A stretch of DNA of 64,000 nt from Pseudomonas sp. B21-048 (GTDB lineage: Bacteria; Pseudomonadota; Gammaproteobacteria; Pseudomonadales; Pseudomonadaceae), in NCBI RefSeq assembly GCF_024748615.1, contig NZ_CP087168.1, forward strand, positions 3,410,001 through 3,474,000. The letters are read 5' to 3'. The translations under genes were made by a program, and so were the position numbers. How positions within the stretch are numbered: the stretch's first letter is position 1; every line of letters begins with the position of its first letter. Below are positions 13,801 to 26,284 of this stretch, one piece after another. The notes under the pieces are model-generated. The model did no database searches and was not told where the DNA came from. It saw nothing but the letters and a program-made list of their open reading frames with translations.

Positions 13801-13827
13801 AGTGTGGGAACGGCTCCTGTTGCTTTG

Positions 13828-13857
13828 CTTTGGCTTTGGCTTTGGCTTTGGCTTTTG
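13828..13857. repeat. Hexamer tandem repeat (TTTGGC)n
   Basis: About five near-perfect copies of the six-base unit TTTGGC lie between the REPIN and the right arm of the long inverted repeat. A shorter GGTTTG run occurs at 13333-13346 near the left arm. No function is apparent. Confidence 0.7.
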
Positions 13858-14140: not shown

Positions 14141-14887
14141 TCACCCCAAGGTATAACCGTTATCAACCTTCCAATCCTGCCCATAGACACCCCGGGCGCC
14201 TTGGGACAGTTGAAAAATAATCACATTGGCCACCGCCGACGCATCAAGGAAATGACCAGGCAGCAGACGCTTGCCAAGGGTATCAGCGACGTCATCGAGT
14301 TCCCCATCGCTCAACCCCAGGTTGTCCCACATCGCGGTCGCGGTCGGCCCCGGGGAAACCAGATTGATGCGCACGTCATAACGCGCGAATTCCACCGCCA
14401 ATGTGCGCGCCTGCGCCGCCAGCGCGGCCTTGCTGGCGATGCAGGCAGCCAGACCGGGAAAGCTCGAACCGGTCAGGAAGCTACCGACAAACACCACCGA
14501 AGCTGGATTCGCCAACTCCCCGCGCAACACCGCCAAGGTATTCAGCGCCCCGGCACCGTTGACCGCCCATTGGCGCTGGAAGGCCGGCATGTCCAGGCTG
14601 TCGGCCATTTCGGCAATACCCGCGTTGGGCACCAGATAATCCACCCGCCCAAGTGCCGCCGCCCGCCGGGCCAGCCCTTGCAAGTCTTCCTCGCACGTGA
14701 CGTCCCCGGCACACCATTGCAGCCGTTCGCCGTAAATCTGTTGCAAGGTCGGCAAATCACCGACAGTACGTGACATCGCCAGCACCTTGACCCCGCGCGG
14801 CAACAGCGCGGCGCACAACGCCAGGCCAATCCCGGAGCTGGCACCGGTGATCACCGCCAGACGATCCTGAAACTCGGTTTGCATCAT
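14141..14887 (-). CDS. Short-chain dehydrogenase/reductase-like protein with Cys in place of the catalytic Tyr
   Basis: This protein of about 248 residues has an intact Rossmann nucleotide-binding motif TGASSGIG near residue 15 and a variant PNAG (usually NNAG). The catalytic Ser is present in VFVGSF, but the YxxxK motif reads CIASK, so the Tyr is replaced by Cys with Lys kept. The C-terminal ARGVYGQDWKVDNGYTLG end is typical of SDRs. The start has a good AGGAGAAC ribosome site (the adjacent ATG at 14884 is also possible). It lies alone between the nir and nos operons behind an FNR-like half-perfect box, so a denitrification link is inferred; substrate and reaction are unknown. Confidence 0.8.
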   Translation of the reverse strand: MMQTEFQDRLAVITGASSGIGLALCAALLPRGVKVLAMSRTVGDLPTLQQIYGERLQWCAGDVTCEEDLQGLARRAAALGRVDYLVPNAGIAEMADSLDMPAFQRQWAVNGAGALNTLAVLRGELANPASVVFVGSFLTGSSFPGLAACIASKAALAAQARTLAVEFARYDVRINLVSPGPTATAMWDNLGLSDGELDDVADTLGKRLLPGHFLDASAVANVIIFQLSQGARGVYGQDWKVDNGYTLG

Positions 14888-14965
14888 GTTCTCCTGGGCA
14901 TCGTTAATGCCAAGCACTGGGGACGTTGTGAGCCCCTATCTTTGAACAGACGCAAAAATACCGAC

Positions 14966-18622: not shown

Positions 18623-20542
18623 TCAGGCTCGCTCGACTTTCATGCGACCGACCATTTCCATGTGCAGCGCATGGCAAAACCAGCTGCAGTAGTACCAATG
18701 CAAGCCGGCCTTGTCGGCGGTAAAGGTGATGGACGAGGTTTGCTGCGGGCTGATCTCCATGCTGGCGCCATGATTGGTCATGACGAAACCATGGGTCACG
18801 TCTTCAATCTGGTCGATGTTGGTGATGATCACGGTGACCTCGTTGCCCTGCTTGACGGTGAACTCGGTCAGACCATAGGCCGGCGCCATGGAGGTCATGT
18901 AGACCCGCACATGATTGCCGTCGCGGATGACCTTGTTGTCGGTCTCCAGGTTGATCCCGTCTTTCTTGGCCAGCTCCACGGTGGCGGCGAAGAATGGGTC
19001 GTTGCGGTTCCAGATCTTTTGGGTCTTGATCTGATCCCGGCGCGCCAGGATGCAATCGTGAGGTTCGGCAAACGCAGGGCCGTCATGCACCAGCTTCATC
19101 TCTTCGCCGGAAATATCGATCAACTGGTCATTTTCCGGGTGCAGCGGCCCGGTCGGCAGGAAGCGGTCCTTGGAGAATTTGCACAACACCACCAGCCACT
19201 TGCCATCCGCTTCACTGGTTTCGGTCAGCGAGGCGTGGTTATGGCCAGGCTGGTACTGCACGTCGAGCTTTTGCTTGATGTAATTGACCTTCTCGCCCTT
19301 GTAGGCACGTATCGCTTCCTCCATGTTCCACTTCACCACCTGACTGTCGATAAACAGCGTGGTGTAAGCGTTGCCGCGACCGTCGAAGGTGGTGTGCAGA
19401 GGCCCCAGGCCCAGTTCCGGCTCGGCGACGATGACCTCGCGCGGGTCCTTGAATTTATCGGCGAACAAGTCGTCCAGCCGGTCGATGGCAATCATCGATA
19501 CCGTTGGCGACAGCTTGCCGTTGGCAATGAAGTACTTGCCATCGGATGAGGTGTTGAGGCCGTGGGGGTTCTTCGGCACCGGGATGTAGCGAGTGAACTC
19601 GGAGTCCTTGCCCTCGGTTTTACGACCGTCGACCACCGGCACTTTCGAGTCTTCCAGGGTAATGAACTTGCCGGCCTTGATCGCGGCCTCGATGCGCGGG
19701 ATGTTGAACACCACGACCCAGTCGCGCTCGTTGCGCATCATGCCGCCAAGGTCGTAAGCCTTCTCCGAGTTGTAGCAGGTGGACGCGGCGTACTTGCCGG
19801 TGTAATCGGCGTCGGAGTTGTCCAGGTTGCCGTCGACGATCACCTGGAAGGCCATCTCCATTTTCTCGGCATCGATGGCGTTGAACATGGTGAAGCTGTT
19901 CTTGTCTTGCAGATCGAACGTGCGGCCGTCATTGGGGTGCGGAATGACGAACTCAGCATTGGCGAACACGTACTTGGTGTAGGGCACTTTTTGCAGACGC
20001 AGGCCGTGAATGGCCTGCACGTTCGGCACGGTGAGGATCTTGTCGCATTTCATGATGTCCAGGCGGATGCGCGCGACCCGTGAGTTGGCCTTGTCGTTGA
20101 TGAACAGGTACTTGCCGTCGTACTTGCCGTCTTTCATGGAGATATGCGGGTGATGGCAATCGCCGTTCTGGAACTTTGCACTGTCGCCCAGAATCCGTTT
20201 GCTTTCGTTGGTCAGGCCCCAGCCGGTGGCCGAGTCGACGTTGAACACCGGAATACGCATCAGCTCACGCATCGACGGCACACCCAGCACCCGCACTTCG
20301 CCCTGATGACCACCGCTCCAGAAGCCGTAGTATTCGTCCAGCTCACCGGGGCCGACATGGATTTTCGCCTGCGCATCCTTGACCGCGGCCGCCCAGGACT
20401 CACGACTGAACACCGCACCGCCCAGTGTCGCGGCCCCCGCCAGTACCGCACCGGTGATGGCGCTGCTGCCCAGAAAACCGCGACGGCTGAGTCCGGTCTG
20501 TTCTTCTTCCGGCACCGGTTTTGTGGATTCTGTATCAGTCAT
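18623..20542 (-). CDS. nosZ: Nitrous oxide reductase (NosZ, clade I)
   Basis: This 639-residue periplasmic homodimeric enzyme reduces N2O to N2. A Tat signal with SRRGFLG (Arg20-Arg21) marks it as the clade I, Tat-exported form. A seven-bladed propeller carries the CuZ histidines. A C-terminal cupredoxin domain has the CuA ligands in CSWFCHALHMEM: Cys619, Cys623, His627 and Met630. The start follows AAGGAGTACGCAAT; an earlier in-frame start is not supported. It lies 55 bases after nosR. Confidence 0.98.
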   Translation of the reverse strand: MTDTESTKPVPEEEQTGLSRRGFLGSSAITGAVLAGAATLGGAVFSRESWAAAVKDAQAKIHVGPGELDEYYGFWSGGHQGEVRVLGVPSMRELMRIPVFNVDSATGWGLTNESKRILGDSAKFQNGDCHHPHISMKDGKYDGKYLFINDKANSRVARIRLDIMKCDKILTVPNVQAIHGLRLQKVPYTKYVFANAEFVIPHPNDGRTFDLQDKNSFTMFNAIDAEKMEMAFQVIVDGNLDNSDADYTGKYAASTCYNSEKAYDLGGMMRNERDWVVVFNIPRIEAAIKAGKFITLEDSKVPVVDGRKTEGKDSEFTRYIPVPKNPHGLNTSSDGKYFIANGKLSPTVSMIAIDRLDDLFADKFKDPREVIVAEPELGLGPLHTTFDGRGNAYTTLFIDSQVVKWNMEEAIRAYKGEKVNYIKQKLDVQYQPGHNHASLTETSEADGKWLVVLCKFSKDRFLPTGPLHPENDQLIDISGEEMKLVHDGPAFAEPHDCILARRDQIKTQKIWNRNDPFFAATVELAKKDGINLETDNKVIRDGNHVRVYMTSMAPAYGLTEFTVKQGNEVTVIITNIDQIEDVTHGFVMTNHGASMEISPQQTSSITFTADKAGLHWYYCSWFCHALHMEMVGRMKVERA

Positions 20543-20597: not shown

Positions 20598-22778
20598 TCA
20601 TTCAGCCGCCGACACTTGCACGACAGGTATCAGTTGCACCGCCACGGGTGCCGATTTGCCGCGCTTCTTGCGCTTGTTGATCAGCGGCGGGCATTTGTCT
20701 TCGTTGTGGTAGGTCATCTGGCAATCGAGGCAGTAATGGCACTCGTTGGCATTGATCCGGCCATCGGGGTGAATCGCCTGGATCTCGCATTCCTTGGCGC
20801 ACAACTGGCAGGGGCTGCCGCATTCCTTGCGGCGCTTGAGCCAGTCGAACAGGCGCAATTTGCTCGGAATCGCCAGCGCCGCGCCCAAGGGGCAGATGTA
20901 GCGGCAATAGACTTTGCGCGTGAAAAGATTGATGACCAGCAGTCCCACCGCGTAGAGCACGAACCACCACTGGCGGTCGAACTTGAGGGTAATGGCGGTC
21001 TTGAACGGTTCTACTTCGGCGAACAGCTCGGCGGTGGACATCGATTCCAGGGAGATGCCGAAAAGCAGCAGCAAGATGATGTATTTGATCGCCCACAGCC
21101 GCTCATGCACCGCAAAGGGCAATTCGTATTGGGGAATTTTCAGCTTGCGCGCGGCTTCGTTGATCAGCTCTTGCAAGGCGCCAAACGGGCACAGCCAGCC
21201 GCAGAACACGCCACGGCCCCACAGCAAAATGCTCGCGGCGGTGAAGACCCAGAGCATGAAGATCAGCGGATCTGTGAGAAACAGCTCCCAGCGAAAGTGC
21301 TCGAACAGCGCATGCACGAAGGTCAGGACATTGACCACCGACAATTGCCCCAAGGCATACCAGCCCAGAAAGACCACGGTAAAGAGCAGGTAACCACGAC
21401 GCAGCCAGTGCAGAAAGCGTGGCCGGCGGGTGAGTTTGTCTTGCAGGAACAGGATGGCCGTCAGCAGCAACAACGCGCTCGCGAGCACGGCGATCTGGAA
21501 GTGTTTCTGGTACCAGATGGTCAGCCACATCGGCCGGTTGGCTTCCTCGATGGCCGCCCGTTCTTCGGCACTCGGCGCGGGGCGCTCAAGGTAGGGCTCG
21601 GGCAGTTGATAAGGCAGTTCGAAGCTGCTGAAGGTGCCGCTGACCGGTCCCGTCTGGCGCCGCACCAGCAACTCCAAAGACCAGGGCGATCCCGGATCGA
21701 ATCCGGCCGGTTTGCGCACAATGAAAATCGACATTTCATTGAACTCGGGCATGCCCTTGGCAAACACGTCGAAGAGCCGCTGATGGTCCATGTCGCGAAA
21801 GCTGATGACGTTGCCGAACTGGCGCAATTGCACCCGATCGAAAATCCCGCCGCGCACGTAACCCGAGCCTTTATAGGAAAACAACCCACGCCCCAGCATC
21901 AGGATGGCTTGTTCGCCGGGTTTGAGTTCCTGCATGAGGAAGCGATATTGATTGTCGCCCAGCAGTGCGCGGCCAATGGTCGGTGGGTTCAAATCGGCGG
22001 TGTACAGCTCGATAAAGGTGTCATCGACTTGATCCGGGCCGGCGTTATCGACGCCTTCGGCTTCGGTGCCCTTGAAGGCGGCATCGACTTGCCCACGGGT
22101 CAGGTTCAACCGGCGAATGGCGCCATTTCCGGTCAGTTGCTCCCAGGTGGCGGGCTCGTAAAAGTCCTGGCGCACGGTGGCGGGTTTGTTCATCACCCCA
22201 CCCTCGCCCTTGATCAGCTTCAGCGACACGGCCACCTCATGGGCGGCACGCATGATGACCTCATTGACCACCATGGCGGTGACGGTTGCGCCGGCAATGG
22301 CATCCACGGTAACCGCGCTCGGGTCGCTTGAATGGCCGACCACCACCCGCTGGCTGACCTTGATCCCTTTGTATCGGGCGCTGAAACCGTGGAGTTTTTC
22401 TTCGGGGATACCGATCAGCAGAATCGGTTCGTGGTGCTCCAGCACATAGGCGTCCTGAATCACGCCGGCGGTGTCGAGGATCACTTGAGTGTTGATCGGC
22501 TTGCCCGAGTAGGCCGGGATGTCCACCACATCCAGGCTCTGGAACACATACCCGATGACCTTGCCGGCCGCCGACAGCGTGCGCACCTTGAACGTGCCTT
22601 CGGCTGCGGACACCGAATCGGTTTGCGGGAAGACCTTCTGGATGCGCTGCTGCTCGATGTCGCCGTATGCCTTGGCCTGCACCGTCGCGAACGCTGCGAT
22701 CATCAGCAAGACCATCACCACCAGCCCGACGCTCCAGATGCGCGGATTGCCATGTGTCGTAGGCTGATGGATTGTCAT
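20598..22778 (-). CDS. nosR: NosR, membrane flavo-iron-sulfur protein of N2O respiration
   Basis: This 726-residue membrane protein donates electrons to NosZ and supports nos expression. After an N-terminal helix, the periplasmic domain has the flavin-attachment motif AGATVT. Several transmembrane segments follow, with the Cys motifs CGWLCPFG and CRYICPLG. The C-terminal domain has ferredoxin-like cysteines (CGSPCQLCAKEC, CHYCLDCQ). The start MTIHQPTTHG is preferred because the alternative ATG 11 codons upstream lies inside the predicted -10 element. It is the first gene of nosRZDFYL. Confidence 0.97.
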   Translation of the reverse strand: MTIHQPTTHGNPRIWSVGLVVMVLLMIAAFATVQAKAYGDIEQQRIQKVFPQTDSVSAAEGTFKVRTLSAAGKVIGYVFQSLDVVDIPAYSGKPINTQVILDTAGVIQDAYVLEHHEPILLIGIPEEKLHGFSARYKGIKVSQRVVVGHSSDPSAVTVDAIAGATVTAMVVNEVIMRAAHEVAVSLKLIKGEGGVMNKPATVRQDFYEPATWEQLTGNGAIRRLNLTRGQVDAAFKGTEAEGVDNAGPDQVDDTFIELYTADLNPPTIGRALLGDNQYRFLMQELKPGEQAILMLGRGLFSYKGSGYVRGGIFDRVQLRQFGNVISFRDMDHQRLFDVFAKGMPEFNEMSIFIVRKPAGFDPGSPWSLELLVRRQTGPVSGTFSSFELPYQLPEPYLERPAPSAEERAAIEEANRPMWLTIWYQKHFQIAVLASALLLLTAILFLQDKLTRRPRFLHWLRRGYLLFTVVFLGWYALGQLSVVNVLTFVHALFEHFRWELFLTDPLIFMLWVFTAASILLWGRGVFCGWLCPFGALQELINEAARKLKIPQYELPFAVHERLWAIKYIILLLLFGISLESMSTAELFAEVEPFKTAITLKFDRQWWFVLYAVGLLVINLFTRKVYCRYICPLGAALAIPSKLRLFDWLKRRKECGSPCQLCAKECEIQAIHPDGRINANECHYCLDCQMTYHNEDKCPPLINKRKKRGKSAPVAVQLIPVVQVSAAE

Positions 22779-22809
22779 GAACTCGCTGATTTCAAGGAGG
22801 CTTGCGGCC

Positions 22810-22851
22810 ATGTTAGGGAGCGTTGTGCACCCTGCCCTTGATTGAAATCAA
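22810..22851 (-). promoter_or_regulatory. FNR/ANR/DNR-dependent promoter of nosRZDFYL
   Basis: TTGATTGAAATCAA at 22838-22851 is a perfect FNR-family box. On the minus strand TAACAT at 22810-22815 sits exactly at the -10 position for a box centred at -41.5, which predicts a transcription start near 22803. This geometry decides the nosR start codon. Confidence 0.87.
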
Positions 22852-22889: not shown

Positions 22890-24278
22890 TCAAACGGTGC
22901 GGGAAAACTGGCCTTTTTGTTGTTCGCCCAGGTAGGCGTCAAACGCCATCGCGGCACTGCGCATCATCAAATGCCCTTGCGGCAACAGCACCAACTCATC
23001 GCTGTGAATCTGCAGCAGTCCGTCACGCACCTGCTCGCCCAGTTGCGCCAGCGCCTCGGCAAAATACTCGGTAAAGCAAATGCCATGACCCGCTTCGAAC
23101 TTGGCGAAATCGATTCTGCCGTGGCACATCAGGTCGTTGATCACTTCGCGACGCAGCAAGTCATCGGCGCTCAAACGATACCCACGATGCACCGGCAACA
23201 AGCCTTGATCGATACGCGCGTAGTACTGCGAAAGCTCCTTCACGCTCTGGCTGTAGCTGTCACCGACCTTGCCGATCGAAGACACCCCAAGGCCGATCAA
23301 ATCGCAGTCGGCATGGGTCGAGTAACCCTGAAAATTGCGTTGCAGGGTGCCCTGGGCGCGGGCCAGCGCCAGTTCGTCGTCTGGCAAGGCGAAATGATCC
23401 ATACCGATATAGACATAACCGGCTTCGGTCAGGCGGCGGATGGTCAGCTCCAGCAACTCCAGCTTGCGCTCCGGCGGCGGCATGTCCGCCGGGCGAATCA
23501 ACCGTTGCGCGCGCACCAACTCGGGTAAATGGGCGTAGCTGTACGCGGCAATCCGGTCCGGACGCAGGGCGATGATCTTGCTGAGGGTGATGTCGAAACT
23601 GTTCACCGTTTGCAGTGGCAGGCCGTAAATCAGATCGACGCTGATCGACTTGAATTGCGCCTCACGCGCCGCCGCGACCAGCGCATAAATCTGTTCTTCG
23701 CTCTGTTGCCGATTGACCGCGGCTTGTACGTGGGGATCGAAATCCTGCACGCCGAAGCTCAAGCGATTGAACCCCAATTGGCGCAGCGACTGAATCTGCT
23801 CGGTGCTGATGGTGCGTGGATCGACCTCGATGGAAAACTCATGGTCATCGCTGTCGTCCATGTCGAATGCCTGGTGCAAACAGTCCATCAGTTCCGCCAG
23901 CTGTTCACGGGTCAAATACGTCGGCGTGCCACCACCCAGGTGCAGTTGCGTGAGTTTGCGCGTGCTGTCGAACAAGGCGGCCTGCATCACGATTTCACGT
24001 TTGAGGTACGTCAGGTACTCGACGGCCCGATGGGTTTTCTGGGTGATGATTTTGTTGCAGGCGCAGTAATAGCAAAGGCTCTTGCAGAACGGAATGTGGA
24101 TATACACCGACAACGGCTTGGGCGCCGCCGCCAGGTTGCTGTCGCAGGCGGCACGCTGATAGTCGTCGACGGCAAACGCCTGATGAAACTGCGGCGCCGT
24201 GGGGTAAGAGGTGTAGCGCGGCCCGGGGCGGTCATACTTTTCGACCAGGGCTCGATCGAAATCGAATGCAGGTTTCAT
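22890..24278 (-). CDS. hemN: Oxygen-independent coproporphyrinogen III oxidase
   Basis: This 462-residue radical SAM enzyme converts coproporphyrinogen III to protoporphyrinogen IX without oxygen, for heme synthesis during anaerobic growth. Its motif CKSLCYYCAC has intact CX3CX2C spacing, and HLGGGTPTYL, FSIEVDPR and FNRLSFGVQDF match the HemN family. The N-terminus (KYDRPGPRYTSYPTAPQF) is the usual HemN trip-wire region. Start ATG 24278 is used; a TTG two codons earlier is possible. It follows the hemN paralogue with a 22-base gap, so the two form an operon. It can supply heme for NirS, NirM, NorC and NorB. Confidence 0.96.
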   Translation of the reverse strand: MKPAFDFDRALVEKYDRPGPRYTSYPTAPQFHQAFAVDDYQRAACDSNLAAAPKPLSVYIHIPFCKSLCYYCACNKIITQKTHRAVEYLTYLKREIVMQAALFDSTRKLTQLHLGGGTPTYLTREQLAELMDCLHQAFDMDDSDDHEFSIEVDPRTISTEQIQSLRQLGFNRLSFGVQDFDPHVQAAVNRQQSEEQIYALVAAAREAQFKSISVDLIYGLPLQTVNSFDITLSKIIALRPDRIAAYSYAHLPELVRAQRLIRPADMPPPERKLELLELTIRRLTEAGYVYIGMDHFALPDDELALARAQGTLQRNFQGYSTHADCDLIGLGVSSIGKVGDSYSQSVKELSQYYARIDQGLLPVHRGYRLSADDLLRREVINDLMCHGRIDFAKFEAGHGICFTEYFAEALAQLGEQVRDGLLQIHSDELVLLPQGHLMMRSAAMAFDAYLGEQQKGQFSRTV

Positions 24279-24300: not shown

Positions 24301-25644
24301 TTAATGCGTTGCACTGCCCAAATCCTTTTCAAACAGGTTGCAGATGGCATCTGCTTCCGACCGGCCGGCGGGAAGAATGCTGATGAAACGGTCCGACAAT
24401 TCAATCAACCCCTCACGACTCAATTGCTCCAGCAATGGCCAGACAGAGGCAAAGTACTTGGAGAAAATCAGCCCATACCGTCGCTCGATGGCGCGGATAT
24501 CCAGCTCTTGATCACACGCCAGTCGCTCCATGACCATGTGCCTTATCTGATCCCCCGCCTCGAAACGCCAGCCACGACACGTCGGCATTTGGCCCCGGTC
24601 CAGCTGCTGCTGATAGCGCTCGATTACATCGGTGTTTTGCGTATACAAATCGTCGATCTGACTGATAGCCCCCAAACCGAACCCGATATGGTCGCAATAA
24701 CCGTGACGGGTAAAACCGTCACAGGTGCGACGCAACCGGCCCCGCTCCTGAGCGATCGCCAGATCATCGTCGGGCCGTACAAACTGCCCCATACCGATGT
24801 AGTGATAACCTGCGCCCATCAACTGTTCGAAGCCGATCTGGCGCATCGCGCCTTTATCGTCCTGGCTGCACAGTTTCCTGACCTTGTCGCCGAGCCTTGG
24901 CCGATAGCGGCGTGGTGGCCGGGCATAGTCGAACACCATCAGTCTGTCCGGTTCCAGCTCAATGATCGCCGCCAGCTTCAGCGCGAAGCTTTCCGGCGTT
25001 TGCCAGGCATGACCAAAACCCAGATCGACATTGATCGACCGATAACCAAAGGTACGGGCGGCATCGATCAGTGAATGAATGGGTGCCGGGTTCTGGTAGC
25101 AGGCCACGGAGATGTCACAGTCGGTGTCGATATCCGGAACGCCAATGCTGACATGATTGAACCCCTGGTCGCGCAACGCGCCCATGGTCGACCAAACGGT
25201 AGAGTGAAGGTCGACGTCGACACTGTAGTCGCCGCACTCATGTTCGAGAAAGTTGAACCGGCCACGCAGACGACTCATCAGCCGTTCCAGATGAGCGATG
25301 GAGGGTGTTCCGCCACTCAGATGAAATTGTTCGACCCGTTGCTCCGCACCCAGATGGCAACCGACGAGGTCGATCTCCTGTTCCAGACGCTGAAGGTACT
25401 GTTCGATGCCGCCGTGCTCGCAGGCGACATCGCGCGAGGAACAAAATGGATTGAGGCTGGAAGGCAGCTGCACGTTCAGGGCGATCGGGCGTCGTTTCTG
25501 GCGGCTGATGCGCAAGGCACGAAGCAAATCCAGAGAGCCGATGCCGTCATGAAACTTTTGTGTGTCGGCATGGCAGTTGGGGTCGAGTACGCCCTGATCG
25601 CACCGAGCGATCGGCTCGCCGGGGGCGTGAGAAAAATCGAGCAT
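24301..25644 (-). CDS. Degenerate HemN paralogue with altered radical-SAM motif
   Basis: This 447-residue protein is colinear with HemN: HLSGGTPSI for the GGGTP motif, GFNHVSIGVPDID for FNRLSFGVQDF, and MGAGYHYIGMGQFVRPDDDLA for the region AGYVYIGMDHFALPDDELA. The cluster motif reads CSSRDVAC: spacing is kept but the middle Cys is Asp. Further substitutions hit SAM-site positions: IEVDPR becomes VDVDLH, and FNRLSFGVQ becomes FNHVSIGVP. I expect no normal [4Fe-4S]-SAM chemistry. The gene is full length with no internal stop, sits first in an operon with true hemN and has its own FNR-type box, so it looks maintained. Its function is unknown. Confidence 0.85.
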   Translation of the reverse strand: MLDFSHAPGEPIARCDQGVLDPNCHADTQKFHDGIGSLDLLRALRISRQKRRPIALNVQLPSSLNPFCSSRDVACEHGGIEQYLQRLEQEIDLVGCHLGAEQRVEQFHLSGGTPSIAHLERLMSRLRGRFNFLEHECGDYSVDVDLHSTVWSTMGALRDQGFNHVSIGVPDIDTDCDISVACYQNPAPIHSLIDAARTFGYRSINVDLGFGHAWQTPESFALKLAAIIELEPDRLMVFDYARPPRRYRPRLGDKVRKLCSQDDKGAMRQIGFEQLMGAGYHYIGMGQFVRPDDDLAIAQERGRLRRTCDGFTRHGYCDHIGFGLGAISQIDDLYTQNTDVIERYQQQLDRGQMPTCRGWRFEAGDQIRHMVMERLACDQELDIRAIERRYGLIFSKYFASVWPLLEQLSREGLIELSDRFISILPAGRSEADAICNLFEKDLGSATH

Positions 25645-25703: not shown

Positions 25704-25717
25704 TTGACTTGTATCAA
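25704..25717 (-). promoter_or_regulatory. FNR/ANR/DNR box upstream of the hemN paralogue-hemN operon
   Basis: TTGACTTGTATCAA fits TTGAY-N4-ATCAA exactly and lies about 60 bases upstream of the ATG at 25644. No strong -10 hexamer is visible at the ideal position (GACACT), so the promoter may depend strongly on the activator. Confidence 0.78.
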
Positions 25718-25761: not shown

Positions 25762-26205
25762 TCACCACGTCAGGTAAAACATCCCCTTGGCCAACAGTAC
25801 GATGACGACCATATGGCAGAACACACTGCCATGGATGAAGTGCAGGTATCGAGCGTTCATTCGGCCGCTTTTGAACAGAAACATGGCGGCCAGAAAATGC
25901 AGCAGCACGCTCACGGCGACCACGATTTTCACCAGCAACAAAATGCTGAACGATGAGGCCATTGGCGTTGCAAGGACGGGCAAATAGCGCAACCAGACCA
26001 TGCCCAGCCCTGCGCCGAACAATACCAACAGCACCCACGGCATCAGGGTGCGGGCTCGGCGGCCAATACCCTCCTCGACCAGCAGCATCACTTTGGCGGG
26101 CAGCTGTTTGCGGATGTTCTCCAGGAACAGGACTTCGAAAAACACCGTGCCGATAAAGATCAGGGCGGCAAACAGATGAAAGGTTAGAAACAGCGGATAG
26201 AGCAT
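25762..26205 (-). CDS. Small four-helix membrane protein, putative denitrification accessory
   Basis: This 147-residue hydrophobic protein has four likely transmembrane helices and begins MLYPLFLTFHLFAALIFIG. Histidines lie in or near helices 1 (FHLFA), 3 (LHFLAAMF) and 4 (YLHFIHGSVFCHMVV), a pattern that could bind heme or copper. It resembles CopD- or cytochrome b-like small membrane proteins, but I do not recognise a specific family. It has its own FNR-type box about 66 bases upstream and is the outermost gene of the denitrification block. A role in electron transfer or NO/heme handling is only inferred. Confidence 0.7.
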   Translation of the reverse strand: MLYPLFLTFHLFAALIFIGTVFFEVLFLENIRKQLPAKVMLLVEEGIGRRARTLMPWVLLVLFGAGLGMVWLRYLPVLATPMASSFSILLLVKIVVAVSVLLHFLAAMFLFKSGRMNARYLHFIHGSVFCHMVVIVLLAKGMFYLTW

Positions 26206-26270: not shown

Positions 26271-26284
26271 TTGACATCAATCAA
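26271..26284. promoter_or_regulatory. FNR/ANR/DNR box upstream of the small membrane protein
   Basis: TTGACATCAATCAA fits the consensus exactly. On the minus strand a TACTCT hexamer at 26243-26248 occupies the expected -10 position. The box also lies 99 bases upstream of the divergent SRAP gene, but its spacing fits the minus-strand gene better. Confidence 0.78.

Follow-up and report, generated by a model that had tools for sequence, protein, structure and literature searches.

A cluster-less HemN paralogue maintained in Pseudomonas, a likely non-catalytic helper of heme supply in nitric oxide and nitrate respiration

The window analyzed here, a stretch of 64,000 nucleotides from Pseudomonas sp. 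B21-048, encodes on its minus strand (24301..25644) a 447-residue paralogue of the oxygen-independent coproporphyrinogen III oxidase HemN that lacks the CX3CX2C motif of the cluster; the protein is likely to be a non-catalytic helper for heme supply in nitric oxide/nitrate respiration, and not the enzyme named in the databases. Judged by its sequence, it belongs to the radical SAM pseudoenzymes in the general sense: it descends from an active enzyme, it has lost the motif, and its gene has been maintained. Databases name it coproporphyrinogen III oxidase although the usual cluster motif is missing, so that reconstructions of the heme pathway probably count an enzyme that is none.

Regarding the gene, it starts with ATG and has an open frame with no internal stop, in agreement with the initial annotation of a full-length frame free of stops and frameshifts; the substitutions VDVDLH, FNHVSIGVP, and GHAWQT listed in that annotation are likewise present. 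The HemN profile TIGR00538 covers residues 30–441 with 278.6 bits, below its cut-off of 324.95, and HemN_C (PF06969) is matched with 29.8 bits against a gathering threshold of 24; the Pfam profile search gave no match to Radical_SAM. With the HemW profile TIGR00539 the protein does not reach the cut-off of 205.4, and a sequence search of the PDB at E 0.001 gave E. coli HemN (1OLT) as the sole relative. The true oxygen-independent HemN next to it (HemN2, 22890..24278, minus strand) carries CX3CX2C, scores 600.8 bits with TIGR00538 (cut-off 325), and matches both Radical_SAM and HemN_C; the 22 bases reported between the two genes are indeed the distance from the stop of the paralogue to the ATG of hemN2 (24278). 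Past HemN2 come nosR (20598..22811, minus strand; NF046105, 1234 bits), nosZ (18623..20536, minus strand; TIGR04244, 1042 bits), and then nosD, nosF, nosY, and nosL down to 15000, with NosD and NosL recognized by HMMs and nosF and nosY named from gene order only. A short-chain dehydrogenase gene (14141–14917) lies between nirN and nosL and has relatives in the fetched loci of genomes G375, G246, G278, and G017; between nirN and this gene, a GCTTTG hexamer is repeated in 5.8 copies (13822–13855).

As for the cluster site, CSSRDVAC had been read as a CX3CX2C motif with Asp in place of the middle Cys. Cys at positions 1 and 8 and Asp at position 5 are there, but the alignment does not support this register: C68, the first Cys of CSSRDVAC, stands opposite the third cluster Cys of true HemN and comes seven residues after a conserved Pro; the true first Cys comes two after that Pro. 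The window paralogue has Ser where HemN has its first Cys and its fourth (that of CxC), and a gap where HemN has the second. Neither Cys is conserved among the 78 full-length homologues (C68 in 43, C75 in 37), 26 of which have no Cys in the loop and 21 three; D72 occurs in 19. The motif is found in none of these 78 sequences and in 76 of 76 true HemN1/HemN2 of the same alignment; it is also missing from the 144 database matches (P0001–P0144), a few of which, at least P0041 and P0090, are fragments without the loop. Overall, the old cluster loop has a majority-residue frequency of 0.28 with 27% gaps; the three main stretches beyond the loop reach 0.75–0.78, and their share of gaps rounds to 0. 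The protein is thus not a HemN that lost its middle Cys; its loop is degenerate family-wide. Within the cluster-less clade the intact motif occurs in no sequence, and most copies in relatives are unbroken, both outcomes that favour the initial annotation.

The AlphaFold model of the window paralogue, made with 58 sequences, has a pLDDT of 81.9, with values below 50 at residues 1–25, 66–77 (the old cluster loop), 173–182, 251–254, and 442–447; the stretch 173–182 ends at the position of the old SAM-contact Arg. The closest PDB fold is that of 1OLT (E 3.7e-35, TM 0.81/0.84), the next matches being above 1e-4, and the HemN fold is predicted to be kept. Outside the N-terminus and the cluster loop, 97/149 HemN invariants are retained as the majority residue; the corresponding values are 3/15 in the N-terminus and 2/15 in the loop. 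The residues that we take, from the 1OLT literature, to contact SAM or the cluster are Y56, the Cys, Q172, R184, I211, F310, the GG pair, D209, E145, and Q311. In the family, Y56, the Cys, and R184 are changed, together with Q172 (P in 96%), I211 (G in 99%), and F310 (C in 95%), and the first G of the GG pair and D209 are kept (99% each); E145 (59%) and Q311 (56%) remain the majority residues, and both are D in the window paralogue.

The view of the initial annotation that this is a maintained pseudoenzyme is well supported: besides the motif count of 0/78, the dN/dS ratio (NG86) of the paralogue is 0.03–0.19 in 16/16 close pairs, hence not neutral, and neutral decay is rejected on this value. 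In the same 16 pairs HemN2 has 0.03–0.09, and the membrane protein encoded upstream (see below) has 0.03–0.15 in 15 pairs; the paralogue protein evolves faster than HemN2 in most pairs. Conservation was assessed on the 78 of 88 copies with 415 amino acids or more, G017 being dropped: conservation reaches at least 97% in 106 columns, 52 of which are common to both true HemNs, and five are fixed on a residue unlike the HemN invariant (I217G, T231K, D294G, E302D, and Y319F in HemN2 numbering). Short or stop-containing copies occur in 7/87 carriers (G073, G302, G022, G371, G381, G305, and G401), and two further genomes, G017 and G322, hold relics; the G401 copy has an in-frame TAG and a start that was not parsed, and the G293 copy runs off its contig.

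With regard to its origin, the window paralogue is closer to the genome's own housekeeping HemN (HemN1, G000:C1:1886750; 45% identity) than to the HemN2 encoded next to it (31%). A tree with 77 rows unites 52/52 cluster-less sequences in a single clade (100/99) that arises within the HemN1 of Pseudomonadaceae and is sister to 12/16 HemN1 rows (97/87); the four Stutzerimonas rows fall outside and HemN2 is distant. This tree includes the loop columns, leaves out G278, and represents the norR-linked genomes by G308, G103, G201, and G260 only. Identities and tree agree in ruling out a duplicate of the neighbouring hemN, and descent from that gene is rejected. The earliest branch of the clade consists of G308, P0132, P0137, and P0138, in which LPFGGGIGYCCCDQ or close variants replace VPFCANICYYCACNK: Gly or another residue stands at the first two Cys positions, and the remainder of the loop is recognizable; P0107 retains the first cluster Cys only. 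By their sequence, these half-eroded loops look like stages of a stepwise erosion of the motif. The G308 copy (L062:9596-10957) scores 414.5 bits with TIGR00538, above the HemN equivalog cut-off, and 28.1 bits with TIGR04419; automatic naming can therefore miss the loss of the motif.

The genus was scanned in 398 sampled Pseudomonas genomes, with presence set at 408 bits or more and G278 (41% identity) added by inspection. The paralogue is present in 87 of them (86 by score plus G278), about one in five of the species scanned, compared with 62/398 for nosZ and 66/398 for nirS; it is carried by 58/62 nosZ genomes and 62/66 nirS genomes. When species are treated as independent and phylogeny is ignored, nosZ or nirS occurs in 71/87 carriers and 7/311 non-carriers. 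A restriction to genomes with nirS or nosZ is not borne out, since 16/87 carriers have neither and nine of these 16 have norB; norB was looked for in just 63 genomes, and was found in 9/16 of such carriers and in 2/47 non-carriers, both relic holders. Carriers with none of the three genes are G022, G032, G092, G299, G305, G358, and G381, the copies of G022, G305, and G381 being truncated; conversely, the nosZ or nirS genomes without a full paralogue are G013, G075, G268, G327, and G337, plus the relic holders G017 and G322. The suggested help with heme d1 has no special link to recommend it, as nirS is missing in 25/87 carriers. Beyond the genus, the best 80 loci from 84,980 species genomes comprise 75 with the motif and five cluster-less ones, all titled Pseudomonas, and the cluster-less matches listed in two protein searches bear names of Pseudomonas or Pseudomonadales; because the listed matches are partly true HemN, confinement to Pseudomonas holds among the matches listed and is no proof of absence elsewhere.

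The consensus FNR box announced at 25704–25717 is present on the coding strand (minus) as TTGATACAAGTCAA, 73 nt upstream of the paralogue ATG; this putative ANR/DNR/FNR-type box agrees with TTGAT-N4-ATCAA at 9/10 positions, with one mismatch. In homologous loci, a box with 9–10 of 10 positions occurs at most 150 nt upstream of the paralogue in 77/87 cases, a result reached on average by 0.16% of shuffles. Boxes of the same quality stand upstream of the membrane-protein gene in 70/82 loci and upstream of hemN2 in 0/67. That membrane-protein gene (25762..26205, minus strand) ends 117 bases upstream of the paralogue and has its own putative ANR/FNR-type box, TTGATTGATGTCAA (26271..26284, minus strand), also with one mismatch, 79 nt before its ATG. 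The description of the paralogue as the first gene of its operon consequently holds insofar as a transcript is predicted to start with it; just upstream, however, lies another gene in the same orientation with a box of its own.

This upstream gene encodes a protein of 147 amino acids, labelled 'CopD family' by NCBI, whose model (pLDDT 86.1) has four helices. H10, H103, H125, and H131 are invariant in 31 aligned sequences, and its suggested link to heme is drawn from these four His only. The protein had no Pfam match at E 10 and no sequence relative in the PDB, and Foldseek returned no significant PDB fold (best E 1.6); its identification as HemJ or another known fold was accordingly rejected. 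Its gene is directly upstream of the paralogue in 76/88 loci and at most 5.1 kb upstream in seven more, 83/88 in total, and was not found in the fetched stretches of the remaining five; at the module it looks broken in G010 and G246. Matches at E 1e-10, second paralogue included, occur in 115/398 genomes, so that the membrane protein exists without the HemN paralogue as well. It is found near nos, nir, nor, or nnrS genes, and a second copy in the same genome, about 40% identical, lies about 4.5 kb beyond norB (L223:7358-7786, outside the window). In L052, L058, and other loci, SCO1 and PCuAC genes are located upstream of it on the other strand; these copper-chaperone genes are nearby in 19/89 loci.

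A more specific proposal, which we put forward tentatively from the sequences, is that the paralogue may be a cluster-free chaperone of a tetrapyrrole (porphyrin or heme), working with the four-His membrane protein in heme supply under exposure to NO. Radical SAM catalysis would be absent because the cluster motif is gone and most SAM contacts are replaced; the barrel inherited from HemN would still hold a tetrapyrrole, and the cargo would be handed on, perhaps via the membrane protein, to NO-handling and denitrification enzymes. Compared with true HemN or HemW, it would gain from having no [4Fe-4S] cluster that NO could destroy. This possibility was chosen because it explains the conserved core, the concentration of losses in the cluster loop, the N-terminus, and the SAM contacts, and also the membrane partner. 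Several observations count against it: the family alignment points to no newly conserved residue as an axial ligand, the His of the HemW/HemN LYxHxPFC being Q in 62%; E145 and Q311 are retained in the family majority; seven carriers have none of nosZ, nirS, and norB; and the membrane protein also occurs without the paralogue. According to PMC10320005, heme binding by HemW needs no cluster and heme transfer by HemW does need it, the latter point counting against a chaperone without a cluster. If the paralogue does carry heme or porphyrin, this bears on heme delivery to NO reductase and denitrification enzymes under NO.

The main rival, doubtful in our judgment, is that the paralogue acts as a non-catalytic partner or regulator of active HemN2 or HemN1, forming a heteromer with it, stabilizing it, shielding it, or inhibiting it under NO. 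The gene order speaks for such a role: the paralogue is co-oriented and directly upstream of hemN2 in 66/88 loci, the two frames overlap in L048 and L092, and the box precedes the pair and not hemN2 itself. The descent of the paralogue among HemN1 points the same way. All carriers have one or more additional HemN-type matches, with HemN1-like rows in 35/35 genomes asked. Within these 35 genomes, however, seven have an unbroken paralogue with no HemN2 found (G004, G092, G186, G267, G292, G313, and G358) and three have HemN2 alone (G013, G337, and G399); this persistence without HemN2 speaks against a regulator specific for it, though HemN1 may be a partner. HemN is a monomer in 1OLT, which also counts against a heteromer.

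The 88 loci compared, from 86 carriers and two relics, were fetched as stretches of 3.6 to 20 kb, the window piece being 32 kb, and because of these unequal lengths a missing neighbour is weak evidence. Genes of the nos, nir, or nor groups lie within the fetched stretch in 57/88; a role in nos clusters only was rejected, as the paralogue is elsewhere beside nir, nor, or norR. In G022 (L106), whose paralogue is truncated, no nosR or nosZ was seen between hemN2 and nosD, and G246 (L088) has remnants of nosR, nosZ, and nirS, yet an unbroken paralogue and hemN2. The regulator gene norR is near in 10/89 loci and ytfE/RIC, for Fe-S repair, in 9/89; both occur in G103, G201, G208, G243, G245, G260, G278, G308, and G401. 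In the tree, G308 belongs to the branch that splits off first, and the clade holding the window paralogue has as its sister one that contains G103, G201, and G260; a beginning of the module next to norR is the simpler reading of these sequences. The fuller scenario is rather speculative: a HemN of Pseudomonas would have been gutted into a dedicated NO-proof heme chaperone, losing the cluster and the SAM site and keeping the porphyrin barrel, and with a new four-His membrane protein it would hand heme to NO-exposed respiratory enzymes. Its module would have arisen next to norR and genes for Fe-S repair, and would afterwards have been redistributed to clusters of nos, nir, and nor genes.

The proximity of norR, that of a Crp/Fnr-type regulator in 7/89 loci, and the conservation of the core despite the lost motif would also suit a sensor, whose pocket would read heme, porphyrin, or NO-damaged intermediates and signal to NO regulators or to the membrane protein; this is improbable, since profile searches matched HemN-type models only, with no signalling domain, and in the window the paralogue is placed among respiratory and heme genes. 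Equally hard to credit is a protein that has stayed catalytic, either through a different chemistry or through a cluster bound in a different way, for instance by lineage-specific Cys such as those of CSPLASxCRC. The three loop Cys of 21/78 homologues and the family-specific conserved W214 and K223 would be in keeping with it; against this stand the 26/78 without any loop Cys, the replacement of most SAM-contact residues, and a loop that is unconserved and modelled with low confidence. Finally, a functionless gene in slow decay is largely refuted and scarcely credible: the short or stop-containing copies, the two relics, and an evolution faster than that of hemN2 are outweighed by the dN/dS values, the 106 near-invariant columns, and the box in 77/87 loci.

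Turning back to the proposed cluster-free chaperone, several known proteins invite comparison. HemN itself (TIGR00538; 1OLT) shares with the paralogue the predicted fold, the length, HemN_C, 45% identity in the case of the genome's own HemN1, and an ANR/FNR-type box; the paralogue differs in having no CX3CX2C, few of the SAM contacts, and no N-terminal GPRYTSYPTA segment, and the window copy is under the cut-off. PsgB (TIGR04419, cut-off 300), by its NCBIfam name a HemN-related non-iron pseudo-SAM protein without a cluster, indicates that such relatives of HemN are already recognized; the window paralogue has no TIGR04419 match at 0.001, and by HMM its family is not PsgB. TIGR04347, which its name and a match to NirJ mark as a pseudo-SAM/SPASM relative of tetrapyrrole radical SAM enzymes, is on the SPASM/NirJ branch and not on that of HemN. 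HemW (TIGR00539) is a HemN paralogue that, according to PMC10320005, carries heme to the anaerobic respiratory enzyme NarI; unlike the window paralogue, which scores 66 bits against 205 and is in the HemN1 branch, HemW keeps its cluster. The same source describes CgdH2 of Campylobacter jejuni as a HemN-like protein, inactive as CPO, that accepts heme from ferrochelatase and binds it; CgdH2 differs in retaining LYxHxPFCxxxCxxC and in grouping with menaquinone methylases (PMC10320005). CgdH2 and HemW are precedents for HemN relatives that became heme binders. No description of the cluster-less paralogue was found in the literature searched, a scope outside which most subscription papers fall, and PMC6588701, where it deals with the core hemN, located close to anr, and with the Anr box of that gene, does not mention it.

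If the paralogue does act as a carrier, the series from active HemN through the half-eroded type of G308 to the cluster-less type would be a natural series on which to ask what a radical SAM fold is capable of once the cluster is gone. The half-eroded copies are, in addition, both a trap for mis-annotation and an evolutionary intermediate.
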